From positions 1-58,748 of the forward strand of contig CALXWB010000006.1 of NCBI GenBank assembly GCA_944392225.1: a stretch of 58,748 nt of DNA, given 5' to 3'. Shown here one piece after another: positions 39,737 to 58,748 of this stretch; positions within the stretch are counted from its first letter, which is position 1; every line of letters starts with the position of its first letter. The notes under the pieces were generated by a model. That model was not told the DNA's origin. It did not search any database and saw nothing but the letters and a program-made list of their open reading frames with translations. A program made the position numbers and the translations under genes. This stretch comes from an uncultured Alphaproteobacteria bacterium. GTDB taxonomy: Bacteria; Pseudomonadota; Alphaproteobacteria; RF32; CAG-239.

Positions 39737-41983
39737 TTAGATTAATCTTGTCAATTCCTCTAACATTTCATCTGCGGTGGTAATAATTTTGGTTGAAGCC
39801 GAGTAAGCTCTTTGTGTGACAATCATATTTGAGAACTCGGTAGCCAAATCAACGGTTGATGCTTCCAAAGCATTGCCGCTGATTTCGCCGGCACCGTCAA
39901 CACCTGCTTGTTTCAGCAACGGTTGGCCCGAAGCATCGGTTTCAATCCAAGCATTACCTGTTAAAGCACTCATGGCGTTGGCATTGGTGAAAGTGGCAAG
40001 CGGTAAAATGGCTATCGGACGTGTTTCACCATTGTCAAACAAGGCTGTCACAACACCATTTTCACTTACTGTCACGCCGGAATAACTACCATATTTTGCA
40101 CCGTCTTGTTTGATGTAGTTGGTGGAAAAACTTCCGGCCAAGCTGGTCAAACCATCCGTGGTGCCGGTGTTGCCCATGCTGATTTTTACGGTTGTACCGT
40201 TACCAACCGAGCCATCCATATTTTCTGCACCGTTTGCCCATTGAATGGACATGTCTTCAACATAGAAATATTTCGGTGTTCCGTCTGAGTTAAAGCGAAC
40301 AGCCGGAACCATGGAGCCGTCTTCAACATCCAAACCGTTGGTCGTAAAGCTGCTGGAGATGGTGTGTTCTCCCGTGGCAACCGCATTGCCGTTGACCCAG
40401 GTGTTGCCATCATTGCGCAAAGAACCGGTTACACCTGCCAAGCTGTTCATGTTTAAGGTGATATCTCCGCCCGTGCCGGTCGGCATAATTTCAATACTGC
40501 TACCGCTGGCAACAAAACGGTTCGGCTCCGTGACATTGGCTTTGATGGCAGCCACCGTCAATTCTACCAGTTTTACGGTATCAATTTTGCCGCCAGCAAT
40601 GGCTGAAGAAATATCAATATCCGTTGCTGCGGCCGCACCGCCGTTTTTAAAGGTGAATGTGGTGCCGTTGATGGTAAATGTTTGGTCTGTATAATCGCCC
40701 AAAGTGGTCGAAGTAAAGTCTAAACGAGCCGTGTTTTTGATATCCGGGTCAATTTCAGGAATTTGGAAAATACCTGTCGGAATACCTGTGGCCAAAACAG
40801 GGTTTGCTGCCGATTGAACACAAGCTTGGGTTTGGCTGGCATTGACTGTTAAGGCTGCACCGGCCTGAGATTGAACGATCTGAATCGAATCGCTGGTGGC
40901 GCTAAAACGATCTGCACTCGGCATATTGGCCTGAATCACATTATTAAATGCATTTATAAAATCTGATACCGAGGTAATGCCATCTTGAATATCCACTTTC
41001 AATTGAACATTATTGCCTTGGCTTTGCGGTGCATTTATATCCGTGTTTAAGAAGTTAAAGACATAGTTTTTGCCGGTGCTTTGATCCGTGATTGTGATGC
41101 TTGAACCATTGGCCGGAATTGCCTTGAATTCCAATTGGCCTGCAGCATAATATACATCGGCAGAACCTCCGTCGGTCACTTCCTTATTGCCGGTCAAAAT
41201 CAAGTTAGCTGCACCTGAGGGCATGTCTACTTCCATTCCCCAAGAGTTGGTGCTCTTTTTAACAAAGTTGATGCTCAAGTTGCTTGAGTTACCCAAGCTG
41301 TCATAAATCAAGGCAGAAATTGAGCGATATCCGCCGGCATCGGGTGAGGTGGCATCATAAACCGGGTCATCTGCCGGCAAGTTTGCTCCAAAGCTAATTT
41401 GTTGGGTCGGGCTGGCCGTGCCGCCAATTGTGGCCAAATTAATCGGTTTTAAGTTTTTGCTGTCTACAATATTGTCATTGACATAAACCGTGGCTCCCGT
41501 AGTGTCATAATAGGCCTTCATATAGGTTACGCCGCCTACCTCTACCGTTGTGGCATTGGGGTTGCCGTCCCAAGGCAACAAAGACCAGCCTTGCGCATAA
41601 AAACCGCCGGTGTTGACCAAATAGCCTGACGTATCCACACCGAAATCTCCGGCTCTGGTATAAGCCCAAGCATCACCTTCTTGCGGGTTGGCTGCTTGGT
41701 TTACAACAAAGAAACCCGTGCCGGAAATAGCCAGTGCTGTTGATGATGAGGTTGATGACAACAAACCCTGAACATCTATTCCTTGTTTGGAAACCGGCTG
41801 AACACCGCCCGGGGAATAAAAGTTTGATGAGGTTTGCTTGGTCACCAAAGTTTGAAATGCAACACTGGTTCCTTTATAACCAATGGTGTTTACGTTTGAG
41901 ATATTATCGGAAATTGCACCCATTGCATTTGACTGGGCGGTCATTCCCGAAATACCCGATTGCATTGCTCCAAAAAGACTCAT
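39737..41983 (-). CDS. flgE: Flagellar hook protein FlgE (long form)
   Basis: The axial N-terminal helix (SLFGAMQSGISGMTAQSNAMGAISDNISNVNTIGYK) and C-terminal helix (STVDLATEFSNMIVTQRAYSASTKIITTADEMLEEL) define a hook protein. The 748-residue length exceeds typical FlgE (about 400-600). The extra sequence lies in the surface-exposed central part, which has two related segments with ITITDQSTGKNYVFNF and FTINGTTFTFKNGG (IQIVQSQAG and IEIMPTGTG follow in each), suggesting an internal domain duplication. TAGGAG precedes the ATG. It is third in the operon after fliK and flgD. Confidence 0.94.
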   Translation of the reverse strand: MSLFGAMQSGISGMTAQSNAMGAISDNISNVNTIGYKGTSVAFQTLVTKQTSSNFYSPGGVQPVSKQGIDVQGLLSSTSSSTALAISGTGFFVVNQAANPQEGDAWAYTRAGDFGVDTSGYLVNTGGFYAQGWSLLPWDGNPNATTVEVGGVTYMKAYYDTTGATVYVNDNIVDSKNLKPINLATIGGTASPTQQISFGANLPADDPVYDATSPDAGGYRSISALIYDSLGNSSNLSINFVKKSTNSWGMEVDMPSGAANLILTGNKEVTDGGSADVYYAAGQLEFKAIPANGSSITITDQSTGKNYVFNFLNTDINAPQSQGNNVQLKVDIQDGITSVSDFINAFNNVIQANMPSADRFSATSDSIQIVQSQAGAALTVNASQTQACVQSAANPVLATGIPTGIFQIPEIDPDIKNTARLDFTSTTLGDYTDQTFTINGTTFTFKNGGAAAATDIDISSAIAGGKIDTVKLVELTVAAIKANVTEPNRFVASGSSIEIMPTGTGGDITLNMNSLAGVTGSLRNDGNTWVNGNAVATGEHTISSSFTTNGLDVEDGSMVPAVRFNSDGTPKYFYVEDMSIQWANGAENMDGSVGNGTTVKISMGNTGTTDGLTSLAGSFSTNYIKQDGAKYGSYSGVTVSENGVVTALFDNGETRPIAILPLATFTNANAMSALTGNAWIETDASGQPLLKQAGVDGAGEISGNALEASTVDLATEFSNMIVTQRAYSASTKIITTADEMLEELTRLI

Positions 41984-53334: not shown

Positions 53335-54552
53335 TTATGACTTCAAGTCGCGGACAACTTGCAACATTTCATCGGCAACGGTAAACGAACTAGAGTTCAT
53401 GCCATAAGCTCTTTGAATGACCACCATTTTGCTGAACTCTTTTTCCACATTGGCGGTGGATTGTTCCAAGGCTTGCGGCACAAGATAATTGCCGCCGTCT
53501 TCTATCAACACGGCATTGCCGCTGGCACCGTTGGCCTCAAATAAAGTGCCGGAAATCGGGGTCAAGTTATCAGGCGCGGCAAAACTACTCAAGGCAATTT
53601 TGGCAATTTTTACCGTTTCACCATTGGTATAGAGGGCAGAAACAATTCCGTCTTCACCAATAGAAGCTTCTTTAAAAGCACCGCCTTCTTGCCCATCTTG
53701 TTTGATGTTGGTGATGCCGCTGCTTCCGGCATATTGCGTCATTTTTTCTATATTCATATTAATGGCATTGGTTGAGCCATCTGCCCAAGTGACATTGAGG
53801 TTGAAGTTGGTGGGAGAGATGACTTTTCCATCATTTGAAAATAAAACCTCAATCGGTTCGGAAGAAACGGTGGCGCCATCCATCTCAAAGGTGACGTTCC
53901 AGGCATTGTTTTTGCCTTCCACCTTATGAAAAACCATATTCATATTGGCGCCATTATCATTCGGACCATAAACCATAATGCCGTAGCTGCTGTTTTCCAC
54001 ACCGTCGGCCGGCACATTGGCGCCGATTTGGACTTGACTTGTCGGCGTAGCCGGTATTTTTTCGGGATAATTGAGCACAATATCTGAAATTGAGGTGCCG
54101 AAAGTTCCATCCTCGTTAGGCATGAAGCCTTGAACGCGCATACCATTGTTGGCCACCAGATAAGGCTGACCATCTGTCAGCTGAATGCGAAAGTTGCCGG
54201 CACGTGTATAATACATATCACCCGAATAACTGTCTCGCACATTGAAAAAAGCATTGCTGTTGCCGTTGATGGCTACATCAAAGTTGCTGTTGGAGGCCAC
54301 AACCTGCCCTTGCGAGGTGATAAGGGTTCTGTCATAATAGCCGACGCCTTGCGTGTCCACACGTGTTGACTGCAGACCGCTTGCGGCATTGCCTTTGACC
54401 ACGGGAATTGAGCCCAACATGGTATAAAACATGGTTTCGCTTGATTTATAGCCCACCGTGTTGATATTGGCAATGTTGGTGCTCACGGTTTCCAGCGCAT
54501 GTGACTGGGAGTCCATCCCGGTGACTGACGGGGTAAAAATACTCAGCGCCAT
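53335..54552 (-). CDS. Second flagellar hook protein (FlgE-like)
   Basis: The N-terminal helix (FTPSVTGMDSQSHALETVSTNIANINTVGYK) and C-terminal helix (QSTANVEKEFSKMVVIQRAYGMNSSSFTVADEMLQVVRDL) are those of hook proteins, and the 405-residue length is normal for FlgE. It differs from the 748-residue FlgE at 39737 in the surface region, so it is a divergent paralogue, not a recent copy. It lies alone, 8.3 kb beyond flaF, with its own sigma-54 promoter and terminator. FlgF/FlgG rod proteins are shorter (about 250-260), so those are less likely. Its role could be a hook variant or a hook cover. Confidence 0.88.
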   Translation of the reverse strand: MALSIFTPSVTGMDSQSHALETVSTNIANINTVGYKSSETMFYTMLGSIPVVKGNAASGLQSTRVDTQGVGYYDRTLITSQGQVVASNSNFDVAINGNSNAFFNVRDSYSGDMYYTRAGNFRIQLTDGQPYLVANNGMRVQGFMPNEDGTFGTSISDIVLNYPEKIPATPTSQVQIGANVPADGVENSSYGIMVYGPNDNGANMNMVFHKVEGKNNAWNVTFEMDGATVSSEPIEVLFSNDGKVISPTNFNLNVTWADGSTNAINMNIEKMTQYAGSSGITNIKQDGQEGGAFKEASIGEDGIVSALYTNGETVKIAKIALSSFAAPDNLTPISGTLFEANGASGNAVLIEDGGNYLVPQALEQSTANVEKEFSKMVVIQRAYGMNSSSFTVADEMLQVVRDLKS

Positions 54553-55334: not shown

Positions 55335-56681
55335 ATGTTTGAAAAAGTTTTGATTGCTAACCGTGGTGAAGTTGCTTTGCGTATTCATCGTGCTTGCCGC
55401 GAGATGGGAATCCGCACCGTAGCCGTCCACTCCGAGGCCGATGCCGACGCCATGCACGTGCGCTTGGCTGACGAGGCCGTTTGTATTGGTCCGGCTCGTT
55501 CCACCGACTCATATCTGAATATGTCGGCAATTATTTCCGCCGCACATATTACCGGGGCTGACGCTATCCATCCCGGTTTCGGCTTCTTGTCCGAAAGTGC
55601 AGATTTTGCCGAGATGGTTGAAGAACACGGAATCACTTTCATCGGCCCAAGACCCGAAATTATGCGCATGATGGGTGATAAAATCACCGCACGTGAAGCT
55701 TCCATCAAAGCCGGATTGCCCGTTGTGCCGGGATCTCCTGCTTTGGAAAGTGTGGAACACGCCATTGAATGGGCTCACAAAATCGGCTATCCCGTGATTG
55801 TTAAAGCCAAAGACGGCGGCGGCGGTAAGGGTATGAAAACCGCTTTCAACGACGAGGAAATGAAAGAAGCTTATACCATGGCTAAAGCCGAAGCTAAAAA
55901 CGCTTTCACCAGCGATGTGGTTTATATGGAAAAATATTTGCAAAAACCACGTCATATTGAAATGCAGGTTTTGGCCGATAACTATGGTCATGTGGTGCAT
56001 TTGGGTGAACGTGATTGTTCCATCCAACGCAACCACCAAAAGGTGATTGAGGAAACCCCTTCCCCGGCTTTGAACCAAAAACAACGTGAAGAAATCGGCG
56101 AGATTGCACGTCACGCTGCCGAAGTTTTGGGTTATAATAACGCCGGAACTATGGAGTTTTTGTATGAAGACGGTAAATTCTATTTCTTGGAAATGAACAC
56201 CCGTTTGCAAGTGGAACACCCCATTACCGAGGCTATCAGCGGTATTGATATCGTTAAAGAGCAAATCCGCATTGCCAGCGGCGCCGAACTGGGTTATAGC
56301 CAAAAAGACATTCAGTTCAGCGGACACGCCATTGAATGCCGAATCAACGCCGAAGACCCTGAAACTTTTGCACCTTGGCCCGGCAAGATTACCGAATGGC
56401 ATGCCCCGGGCGGTTTGGGCGTGCGCGTTGATTCTGAAATTTATTCAGGATACAGAATTCCGCCTTATTATGACAGCATGATTGCCAAGCTCATTGTGCA
56501 CGGCAAAACACGTAATGCTGCTTTGATGCGCTTGCGTCGTGCTTTGGAAGAGTTTGTGATTGAGGGGGTGAAAACCACTATTCCGCTGCACCAAGAAATT
56601 ATATCTCAGCCGGAGTTTATTGACGGCCAATATAATATTCACTGGTTGGAAAAATTTATGGCCTCAAAACACAAGGCATAA
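55335..56681 (+). CDS. accC: Biotin carboxylase of acetyl-CoA carboxylase
   Basis: The ATP-grasp enzyme (448 residues) starts FEKVLIANRGEVALRIHRACREMGI. It has KAKDGGGGKGM (ATP loop), EKYLQKPRHIEMQVLADNYG, ERDCSIQRNHQKVIEE, and EMNTRLQVEHPITE with the catalytic Arg. It carboxylates the biotin of AccB. AAGGA lies before the ATG; a terminator closes the accBC operon. The aat gene, often third in alphaproteobacteria, is absent. Confidence 0.98.
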   Translation: MFEKVLIANRGEVALRIHRACREMGIRTVAVHSEADADAMHVRLADEAVCIGPARSTDSYLNMSAIISAAHITGADAIHPGFGFLSESADFAEMVEEHGITFIGPRPEIMRMMGDKITAREASIKAGLPVVPGSPALESVEHAIEWAHKIGYPVIVKAKDGGGGKGMKTAFNDEEMKEAYTMAKAEAKNAFTSDVVYMEKYLQKPRHIEMQVLADNYGHVVHLGERDCSIQRNHQKVIEETPSPALNQKQREEIGEIARHAAEVLGYNNAGTMEFLYEDGKFYFLEMNTRLQVEHPITEAISGIDIVKEQIRIASGAELGYSQKDIQFSGHAIECRINAEDPETFAPWPGKITEWHAPGGLGVRVDSEIYSGYRIPPYYDSMIAKLIVHGKTRNAALMRLRRALEEFVIEGVKTTIPLHQEIISQPEFIDGQYNIHWLEKFMASKHKA

Positions 56682-56698
56682 ATTGCGCCGAGAAAGAC

Positions 56699-56733
56699 AA
56701 AAAACCTCTTCTGAAAATGAAGAGGTTTTTTTG
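56699..56733 (+). terminator. Terminator of accBC
   Basis: The stem AAACCTCTT/AAGAGGTTT with T run lies 18 bases after the accC stop. Confidence 0.88.
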
Positions 56734-56749
56734 TGAAAAATTAAGCATA

Positions 56750-56765
56750 TTAACCAAACATTAAC
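56750..56765 (+). promoter_or_regulatory. CtrA-type binding site upstream of the flagellin gene
   Basis: TTAA-CCAAACA-TTAAC is a perfect CtrA box, 93 bases before the flagellin ATG. A further TTAA half-site lies at 56741. No sigma-54 site was seen in this leader. Confidence 0.7.
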
Positions 56766-56857
56766 CTGAAATATGGTAGTTTTAAAGACGGATGAAAAGG
56801 TTTGAGTAAAAAAGCACATCCAAAGTATTGTAATATATCAAAAAGTAGTTGGTGGAT

Positions 56858-58618
56858 ATGTCAGAAATAAGTTTAACAGCGTCCATGCGCAGCAATTTGT
56901 TAAGCTTGCAACAAATAGCAAAGTTGCAAGACAGCACGCAATTACGCTTATCCACCGGCTTAAAAGTCAATTCCGCCATAGATAATCCCAGTTCTTATTA
57001 TACTGCCAGCTCGCTTAATAACCGAGCCGAGGATTTGTCAGCATTGCTTGATTCGATGGGACAATCGGTGCAGACCATTAAAGCTGCAACCGAGGGGATT
57101 GAGAAAGCAGAAGAGCTTTTAGCCATTGCGCAAGCCACGGCCAACTCGGCTTTGGAAGATATAAAAATTCCCGAAAAAAGCTATTTTGAAAGCCTGGTCG
57201 GAGAAAACGGCGCGGTTGTCAGCAGCAAAGAAGAATTGTTAAACGCCGTCAATGCCGGCAAAGAAGAAATATGCATCTATGGTGAGATTGATATGGGTGA
57301 CCAAACCATCACCTTAACCGACAATCAGAAACTGGTTGGTATTGGTTATTATGGCAAATTTGACTCTGACACCGATAAATTTTCTTCTCTCAAATTTGAA
57401 TATGAAGGTATTGAAGGAAGAAACTTTATTTTTTCTGCTAAGAGCAACAATGTCATTTCAGATTTATCAATAAATGTGAATTCCTTAAACAACCAATTCT
57501 GCAGCGCTATTGCTTTTGATAATGCTACAAATGCAATCATTCAAAATATAGATATTCAAGCTAACACAACAGCTTTATCTATAGCTACTTCAACCAATAT
57601 AAAATTAGATGGAAAAAACTTTTTTAATCTTTACGAAAAAGATACTATATATGCCATTGATTCAAACTCTTCAACTTTTGATATCTATGGGGAAACTACA
57701 ATCAAGAATATTGGTCCGTCATATAATTATGGATTGTGTAGCGGAGGCCAAACCGGCCAAATCAATATTTATGGCAAGATGAATATTCATAGCGAAGGAA
57801 GAAATTCTTTTAATGTGGCTCTCGGAGAAGGAAAAATCAATTTTAAATCCGGTTCAGAGCTTAATATGCAAGGTTTTCTTTTTGTTGCAGAAACACAAAC
57901 GACCGCCCCCGGAATAATGACTTTTGAAGCCGGAGCAAAGTTGAATTATCAAAATCAAGGAAGTTTTCTCGCTTCTAATGAAATAGCGGTTACAGGAAAT
58001 ATGGGCTCAGGTGGACATATAAATATCACTGCAAATTATATCCGTCAAAATTTAACTGATTTCACCGAAACGGATTATAAATGGGAAGAAATTGATTTTG
58101 AGGGCGACAATAGCGGTGCCAAAGGCAAAGTAGAAGATAAATATAATTCAAGTTTCAACAAAACTTTGTCGCAATATGATAGTTTGATTAAAGATAGTTC
58201 TTATAAAGGCGTGAACTTGCTTCAAGCCGATGATTTGAAAGTGATTTTTAATGAAAACAGAAGTTCAACCTTAGAGGTGAGCGGCGTGGATTTGAGCTCC
58301 GATAAAATCGGTATGATGACGGCTGATTGGTTAACCGCTGAAGATGTGCAAAAAACCATAGAACAATTATCTAACGCCAAAAACGCCCTGCGTTCGGCCT
58401 CAACCAAGCTCGGCAACTATTATTCCATCATCACCGAGCGCGAGACTTTTACCGATAATTTGATTAATGTGCTGGAAGAAGGTGCGGATAAGCTCACGCT
58501 TGCTGATATGAATGAAGAGAGTGCCAATATGCTCTCCCTGCAAACGCAACAACAACTGGCGATTAATTCTTTAAGCCTTGCATCACAGGCCAGCCAAGCT
58601 GTCCTGAGATTGTTCTAA
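56858..58618 (+). CDS. Flagellin with inserted beta-helix (pectate-lyase-like) domain
   Basis: Residues 1-106 are the flagellin D0/D1 N-terminal part (SLTASMRSNLLSLQQIAKLQDSTQLRLSTGLKVNSAIDNPSSY). Residues about 430-586 are the C-terminal D1/D0 part (SYKGVNLLQADDLKVIFNE, LEVSGVDLSS, ending LASQASQAVLRLF), both in alphaproteobacterial style. Between them, about 108-400 holds a predicted right-handed beta-helix. It opens like pectate lyases (SSKEELLNAVNAGKEEICIYGEIDMG, ITLTDNQKLVGIGYYG) and continues with short repeated strands (NVISDLSINV, AIIQNIDIQA, INIYGKMNI, INFKSGSELNM). No pectate lyase catalytic Asp/Arg set is evident, so it is probably a surface adhesin or carbohydrate-binding ornament on the filament. 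Start is ATG 56858; the ribosome site GGTGG is close and weak. The usual alphaproteobacterial flagellin is about 270-400 residues. Confidence 0.9.
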   Translation: MSEISLTASMRSNLLSLQQIAKLQDSTQLRLSTGLKVNSAIDNPSSYYTASSLNNRAEDLSALLDSMGQSVQTIKAATEGIEKAEELLAIAQATANSALEDIKIPEKSYFESLVGENGAVVSSKEELLNAVNAGKEEICIYGEIDMGDQTITLTDNQKLVGIGYYGKFDSDTDKFSSLKFEYEGIEGRNFIFSAKSNNVISDLSINVNSLNNQFCSAIAFDNATNAIIQNIDIQANTTALSIATSTNIKLDGKNFFNLYEKDTIYAIDSNSSTFDIYGETTIKNIGPSYNYGLCSGGQTGQINIYGKMNIHSEGRNSFNVALGEGKINFKSGSELNMQGFLFVAETQTTAPGIMTFEAGAKLNYQNQGSFLASNEIAVTGNMGSGGHINITANYIRQNLTDFTETDYKWEEIDFEGDNSGAKGKVEDKYNSSFNKTLSQYDSLIKDSSYKGVNLLQADDLKVIFNENRSSTLEVSGVDLSSDKIGMMTADWLTAEDVQKTIEQLSNAKNALRSASTKLGNYYSIITERETFTDNLINVLEEGADKLTLADMNEESANMLSLQTQQQLAINSLSLASQASQAVLRLF

Positions 58619-58653: not shown

Positions 58654-58686
58654 AAAAAAAGCTCTACAGCTGCAGAGCTTTTTTTG
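58654..58686. terminator. Bidirectional terminator after the flagellin gene
   Basis: The stem AAAAGCTCT/AGAGCTTTT with flanking A and T runs lies between the flagellin gene and the convergent partial gene at the right edge. Confidence 0.9.
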
Positions 58687-58693
58687 TTTTGCT

Positions 58694-58748
58694 TTATTTC
58701 TTGCCGGCGGGCTTGACCGGGGCATTGACTTTGTTTTGCAAATCTTTA
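58694..58748 (-). CDS. Partial CDS, C-terminal end only
   Basis: The minus strand ends in KDLQNKVNAPVKPAGKK then TAA, with the start outside the window. The terminator just beyond supports a real gene end. Eighteen codons are too few to assign a family. Confidence 0.5.
   Translation of the reverse strand, partial: KDLQNKVNAPVKPAGKK

Follow-up and report, generated by a model that had tools for sequence, protein, structure and literature searches.

A flagellin with a beta-helix outer domain belongs to a dispersed set of flagellin genes in an uncultured alphaproteobacterium of family CAG-239

The window, meaning the whole 58,748-nt stretch of DNA analysed here, ends where its contig ends, and the last gene recognised on it, which is preceded by accB and accC (identified with NCBIfam), encodes a flagellin. 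The following features were assigned at this locus.

56750 to 56764, + strand: TTAA-N7-TTAA box, TTAACCAAACATTAA, at the 5' edge of an upstream module common to paralogs
56750 to 56857, + strand: conserved upstream module (promoter/leader) common to paralogs
56858 to 58618, + strand: long flagellin gene, 586 amino acids (reading of the ORF, and Pfam)
56858 to 57121, + strand: flagellin N-terminal D0/D1 half, residues 1-88 (PF00669)
57143 to 57457, + strand: conserved region comprising the linker and the insert's N-terminal cap, residues 96-200, and containing an NQKLVG motif
57188 to 58123, + strand: right-handed beta-helix outer domain, residues 111-422 (fold comparison, and homology)
58136 to 58615, + strand: flagellin C-terminal D1/D0 half, residues 427-586 (PF00700)
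58660 to 58686, + strand: terminator-like hairpin and T-run downstream of the flagellin gene, read directly
58717 to 58748, - strand: terminal 32 nt of the contig, matching the 3' portion of a conserved gene in the congener G002 at 87.5% identity

Both terminal helical regions of the flagellin family were recognised by Pfam above their curated cut-offs, Flagellin_N (PF00669) at residues 12-100 (30 against 26.6 bits) and Flagellin_C (PF00700) at residues 503-586 (34.8 against 23 bits), as expected from the preliminary description of a flagellin scaffold complete at both ends. No credible Pfam match was found between them. The middle region had been described as looking like a beta-helix with a pectate-lyase-type opening, and the fold comparison bears this out: the window insert is a serial strand solenoid matching solved beta-helix proteins, with the properties of a right-handed parallel beta-helix, the insert of a relative flagellin (L057) adopts a beta-helix fold too, and the N-terminal cap aligned with that of the pectate lyase superfamily. 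Among the closest folds are pectate lyase A, alginate lyase 6kfn and AlgE4, with Vag8 and many enzymes equally close. The only match in a search of PDB sequences with an insert profile had an E value of 2.5. Searches for pectate lyase and beta-helix families, proposed earlier as a further check, gave no Pfam match for the window insert and, among the families listed for 36 inserts, scattered weak matches, mostly in single members. A fixed coil period was considered and rejected, as the autocorrelation exceeded the null in one of nine proteins.

The sequences gave no indication of a shared enzymatic function. In an alignment of the 36 inserts, scanned at columns filled in at least 24 rows and numbered on the L057 insert, all columns occupied to at least 80% by one of D, E, R, K, H, Y, C or W lay in the cap (up to position 113) or at the exit (from position 318), and none was found between positions 114 and 317, where the alignment of the solenoid is loose. 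Conserved catalytic residues on the solenoid face, as in pectate lyase superfamily enzymes, were thus not seen, which argues against a common catalytic set in the solenoid, while single members could still be active. The absence of an evident catalytic set, noted in the preliminary description, is supported, and the binding of carbohydrate or the immune shielding suggested there would be putative roles. The Pfam and NCBIfam matches of the 36 inserts were scattered and weak, mostly in single members, and no credible enzyme family was among the 25 of 34 matched Pfam families listed or the 15 NCBIfam families, nor among the Pfam matches of the window protein and seven further long flagellins. Among the families listed, the best match of any kind was to DUF2345 (0.0006) and the best to beta-helix families were at 0.009 and 0.0078, each in one of the 36 inserts. 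A peptidase family was not matched by the window protein, by the seven further long flagellins or in the 25 of 34 Pfam families listed for the inserts.

The domain therefore resembles the pectate lyase superfamily in fold and cap and differs from it in having neither a Pfam match nor conserved catalytic residues. Like flagellinolysins and other flagellins with inserted domains, the window protein bears a foreign domain in the hypervariable region (PMC5595980, as far as seen), but no match to a peptidase, the domain that flagellinolysins carry there, and no conserved catalytic set was found. The survey of domain inserts in question counts 61 domain families in 26,587 flagellins, and its main text uses neither the word 'helix' nor the word 'lyase' (PMC5595980). 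In Salmonella and the E. coli H types, flagellins combine conserved D0/D1 regions with an exposed variable middle, and variety arises by recombination (PMC7018530, in the part consulted). These traits are shared here, with the differences that the middle is a beta-helix and that many versions occur in one genome. Beta-helix adhesins such as Vag8, SRRP and PfbA are carried by an autotransporter or a wall-anchored protein. In the present case the beta-helix is borne by a flagellin, and when PDB sequences were searched with the profile of the insert, the Vag8 passenger, L. reuteri SRRP and PfbA were not matched. No report of a beta-helix flagellin was found in searches of the open-licence literature, and the outer-domain survey of Fields et al. 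2024 may already show one.

Beyond what had been described from the window, its flagellin gene proved to be part of a set of long flagellin loci, at least 17 in number, that are dispersed over the genome. The assembly from which the window is taken (G000) is a 94.9% complete MAG of 1,456,797 bases in 78 contigs. The whole window protein matched 36 stretches of it, and Flagellin_N and Flagellin_C each gave 17 matches above cut-off. Counted by their 3' ends, there are at least 17 long loci, namely 16 with Flagellin_C and one 23-residue tail on contig C16, and in addition at least three short flagellins, all on contig C15, whose ends truncate two of the three. Of the long loci, ten are intact, two (C21 and C13b) are frame-broken and C3 is both frame-broken and cut, while contig ends truncate the remaining four, C9c, C7, C22 and C16. 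Two more 5' pieces, C33 and C32, may belong to cut long loci. The downstream flanks of the 17 long loci are distinct, the longest exact stretch in common being 62 nt, with a flank of only 130 nt available for the window locus. Given the short flagellins and the many different long ones, the earlier proposal that the insert decorates each subunit of the filament cannot be maintained as stated. The ten intact copies, in window numbering, have a mean identity of 95% over residues 1-92, 36% over residues 93-425 and 82% over residues 426-586, and their inserts range in length from 350 to 447 residues.

The assembly of repeats is the main caveat on this repertoire. A non-coding repeat of ~100 nt was also observed directly after several of the flagellin genes and elsewhere, with 21 matches in the genome (for example G000:C5:247-337, C3:84557-84654, C21:16889-16977 and C25:88-265).

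At all 14 readable 5' ends of the genome (C3, C7, C9c, C16 and C22 are seen only by their 3' part), a module of ~110 nt was read by eye that opens with TTAA-N7-TTAA and closes with the same leader and ATG. Over these 14 loci, the N-terminal DNA together with 115 nt upstream has a mean identity of 90.5%. In its pattern the box is presumably similar to the alphaproteobacterial CtrA site. The idea that CtrA governs such genes in general was rejected, since the box is present in 14 of 14 readable copies in this genome but in only one of 27 related loci outside it (up to 200 nt upstream of each, two having less than 120 nt). In the relatives, copies within one genome mostly have a common module of their own that differs between genomes, with variants within G045 and within G034. 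Phase variation of the Salmonella type relies on an invertible promoter between inverted repeats. A scan of window positions 56600 to 56950 for an inverted repeat at the promoter of this locus found only a terminator-like one.

Antigenic variation of the vlsE or pilE type involves many homologous copies and segmental exchange, with one expression site and promoterless silent copies. The flagellin set is similar in its copies and, subject to the caveat on assembly, in segmental exchange between them. It differs in that a promoter-like module and a start were found at each of the 14 readable 5' ends, so that there is no sign of promoterless silent cassettes, and no single expression site is evident in the genome. 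At the 5' ends read and at the one promoter scanned, neither a switch nor silent cassettes came to light, and the simplest reading would be that the genes are expressed jointly.

Segmental exchange was seen as long exact tracts. Loci C21 and C3 have 747 nt in common without a mismatch, preceded by 38 mismatches in 352 columns and followed by 4 mismatches in ~218 columns and then by many (95 in all on that side), and the frame break common to both lies inside this tract. The tract common to C13a and C8a is 563 nt long and runs from the end of the insert into the C-terminal part. A single exact tract of 235 nt, with a left flank at 41% (ungapped), was found in G045, a genome given as 100% complete, and the longest in G034 is 107 nt. 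In the PHI test, absence of recombination was rejected for the C-terminal region (0 of 1000 permutations), and recombination was not significant for the N-terminal region (71 of 1000). Repeats are difficult for assemblers, so that an exact tract in a MAG can be trusted only once long reads confirm it, and since many of the 78 contigs end inside flagellin genes, the exactness of the tracts and the three frame breaks could partly be effects of assembly.

Trees of the conserved ends and of the inserts, which both carry a long-branch warning, gave different histories. In the backbone tree of 46 proteins (9 of 55 were left out because the C-terminal start was not found by pattern), the ten copies of the window's genome fall into a single clade (95*), and the same holds for 11 rows of G045 (96*) and for seven of G034 (100*). 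The six CALXVV rows are not one clade in this tree, requiring 3 changes and being mixed with CALXVW and CALXVX rows. In the tree of 33 inserts, from which 13 of the 46 proteins with a different, lectin-like insert marked by a WYLP motif were left out, the rows of the window's genome need 4 changes, at least 3 of them forced by starred branches. Moreover, the inserts of C13a and C8a join L066 at 100*, and the backbone of L066 is the most distant row. The exact tracts and the discordance of insert and backbone indicate recombination. Homogenised ends together with older or exchanged inserts would explain both the single-clade backbones and the discordant inserts.

The dN/dS ratios (NG86, 8 pairs) are 0.02-0.12 for residues 1-88, 0.25-0.41 for the solenoid and 0.05-0.17 for the C-terminus, and are rough, as several dS values exceed 1. 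The solenoids are less constrained than the ends, with dN/dS below 1 and no positive selection on average. Since ten frames are intact and every pair tested had a dN/dS below 1, it is probable that the majority of the copies are in use.

The position of the window gene was compared with that in four of the six congeners, G002, G003, G004 and G006 (G005, in which a contig ends there, and G001 were left out). The conserved gene of G002 matched by the last 32 nt of the contig (E 4.3e-4 in a database of four sequences), MlaC-type as judged by eye, stands two places downstream of accC, and this match thus places the window flagellin between accC and that gene. No flagellin was found at the accC site in any of the four congeners (frames of at least 120 aa). 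In G006, a block further downstream of the site is inverted. Just downstream of accC, each of the four congeners has a small gene (L114-L117, frames of 159-237 aa), and by eye these differ between congeners, as if the site were a hot spot.

The survey of related genomes proposed earlier located the insert cap region in five of the seven genomes of the genus (the seven have 17, 12, 3, 3, 4, 10 and 4 Flagellin_C matches) and in 34 of 153 genomes of the family, covering 9 of 16 genera. One more genome in the whole order added no cap match (34 of 154), and an even sample of the class gave a match to a longer insert profile in 2 of 289 genomes, both in the same family. The insert is thus rare outside one family, in line with the initial impression that it is unusual in Alphaproteobacteria. 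Flagellin_C was matched in 78 of the 153 family genomes, at least 10 times in 16 and more than 15 times in five (G028, 32; G045, 25; G000, 17; G055, 17; G053, 16), where the counts are of matches, partial genes included, that were read one by one only in the window's genome. The bin with 32 matches, G028, is of 1.6 Mb in 220 contigs (32 of 50 first-look candidates scored). One frame of 862 aa in G049 (G049:C10:20927-21991) has two matches to the cap profile and perhaps holds two beta-helix domains in one flagellin.

Among relatives, 40 loci were fetched, including 14 of the 25 Flagellin_C regions of G045 and 7 of the 9 of G034, and a flagellin was recognised in 37 (all except L099, L100 and L104). 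The WYLP-motif insert, which is different from the beta-helix, was found in 9 of 11 G045 and 4 of 7 G034 flagellins of the backbone tree, so that within a single family two or more distinct outer domains are borne by the flagellin backbone. Pfam matches to Lcl_C in the two such flagellins scanned (1.1e-7 and 0.006) were both under the cut-off, and the protein from G034 also had a weak Pectate_lyase_5 stretch (0.026). In L069 (G045:C14:23800-26400), L092 (G034:C7:72200-75400) and others, a C-type-lectin-like Lcl_C insert replaces the beta-helix or lies beside it, with the pattern WYLP ... WSSSE ... R[CS]FQ, and the residues around WSSSE vary between paralogs. Inserts of the Lcl_C type resemble the targets of diversity-generating retroelements (DGRs). 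A DGR reading was rejected, since RVT_1 gave no match in G045, G034 or the window's genome (95% complete), and was present in 7 of the 22 genomes searched.

Very many flagellin paralogs per genome are known from the magnetotactic cocci MO-1 and MC-1, which have 14 and 15 flagellin genes, mostly in a tandem array, and 15 was given as the record in a 2020 review (PMC7175107, as far as seen). The genes described here differ from these in being dispersed, single and equipped with beta-helix inserts, and five of the 153 family genomes exceed 15 Flagellin_C matches. Odd outer domains in flagellins and genomes with many flagellins are both of kinds already known. Searches of the open-licence literature did not find the two combined as here, where the insert is a beta-helix with a history separate from that of the homogenised ends and the dispersed copies outnumber those published.

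We consider it moderately probable that the window gene encodes a flagellin with an adhesin-like beta-helix outer domain and is one of a recombining set that gives rise to a changeable filament coat. The filament subunit would have ordinary D0/D1 ends with a non-catalytic, adhesin-like right-handed beta-helix as its outer domain, and the at least 17 scattered long loci would provide versions with conserved ends and, where readable, a promoter-like module in common, and with differing solenoids. The flagellin genes would be expressed together, and different subunits would mix in one filament. Gene conversion would homogenise the ends and shuffle the solenoids, and the outcome would be a changeable outer coat, through which both the binding of the filament and the surface that it presents to antibodies or phages would vary. 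On the sequence evidence, such a variable adhesive or antigenic coat on mosaic filaments would be favoured over specific glycan adhesion and over filament mechanics.

Were each solenoid instead an adhesin committed to certain glycans of mucus, plants or bacteria, the set would consist of specialised binders and not form a changing antigenic coat. The lack of a conserved charged, Y, C or W column through the solenoid makes this rather unlikely, and the similarity in fold shows no function, given that Vag8 and many enzymes are equally close. A mechanical role, in which contacts between the outer domains create ridges or a sheath and so make the filament stiffer in viscous gut content, has been described for other outer domains (PMC12445082, in the part consulted), but insert lengths of 350-447 residues and strong divergence fit poorly with regular contacts between subunits, and this role is judged improbable. 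An expansion that is mainly neutral or selfish, in which copies decay and the count is inflated by repeat assembly, would account for the three loci with broken frames, the many contig ends inside flagellin genes and the dispersed repeat downstream of many copies. It is a very unlikely explanation given ten intact copies, dN/dS well below 1 in the 8 pairs tested, 17 distinct downstream flanks, and high counts also in genomes of ~40-50 contigs given as 100% complete (25 matches in G045, 17 in G055). Least probable of all is an insert acting as a polysaccharide lyase, hydrolase or epimerase, for despite pectate lyase A, alginate lyase 6kfn and AlgE4 being among the nearest folds, the solenoid has no conserved column of catalytic type and no credible enzyme family was matched (25 of 34 Pfam families listed; 15 NCBIfam).

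If the changeable coat is the correct reading, the filament would be used as a platform for a domain repertoire. More tentatively, the flagella of this one family may be mosaics of as many as ~30 flagellins encoded by dispersed genes that recombine, with outer domains of the beta-helix adhesin type and the C-type-lectin type swapped on a homogenised backbone, amounting to combinatorial surface variation without an expression switch. More than one flagellin gene is present in about half of flagellated species, for reasons said to be mostly unknown (PMC6299084, in the part consulted). With 17 to 25 Flagellin_C matches and exchangeable adhesin-like domains in genomes of 1.5-1.7 Mb, a trade between surface variety and motility would be directly testable.

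Further flagellar genes were observed in the window. A FlgE hook protein of 748 aa (39737-41983), for which the best matches are at both ends, seems to hold a large middle insert, and a second FlgE-like protein, of 405 aa, is encoded at 53335-54552.
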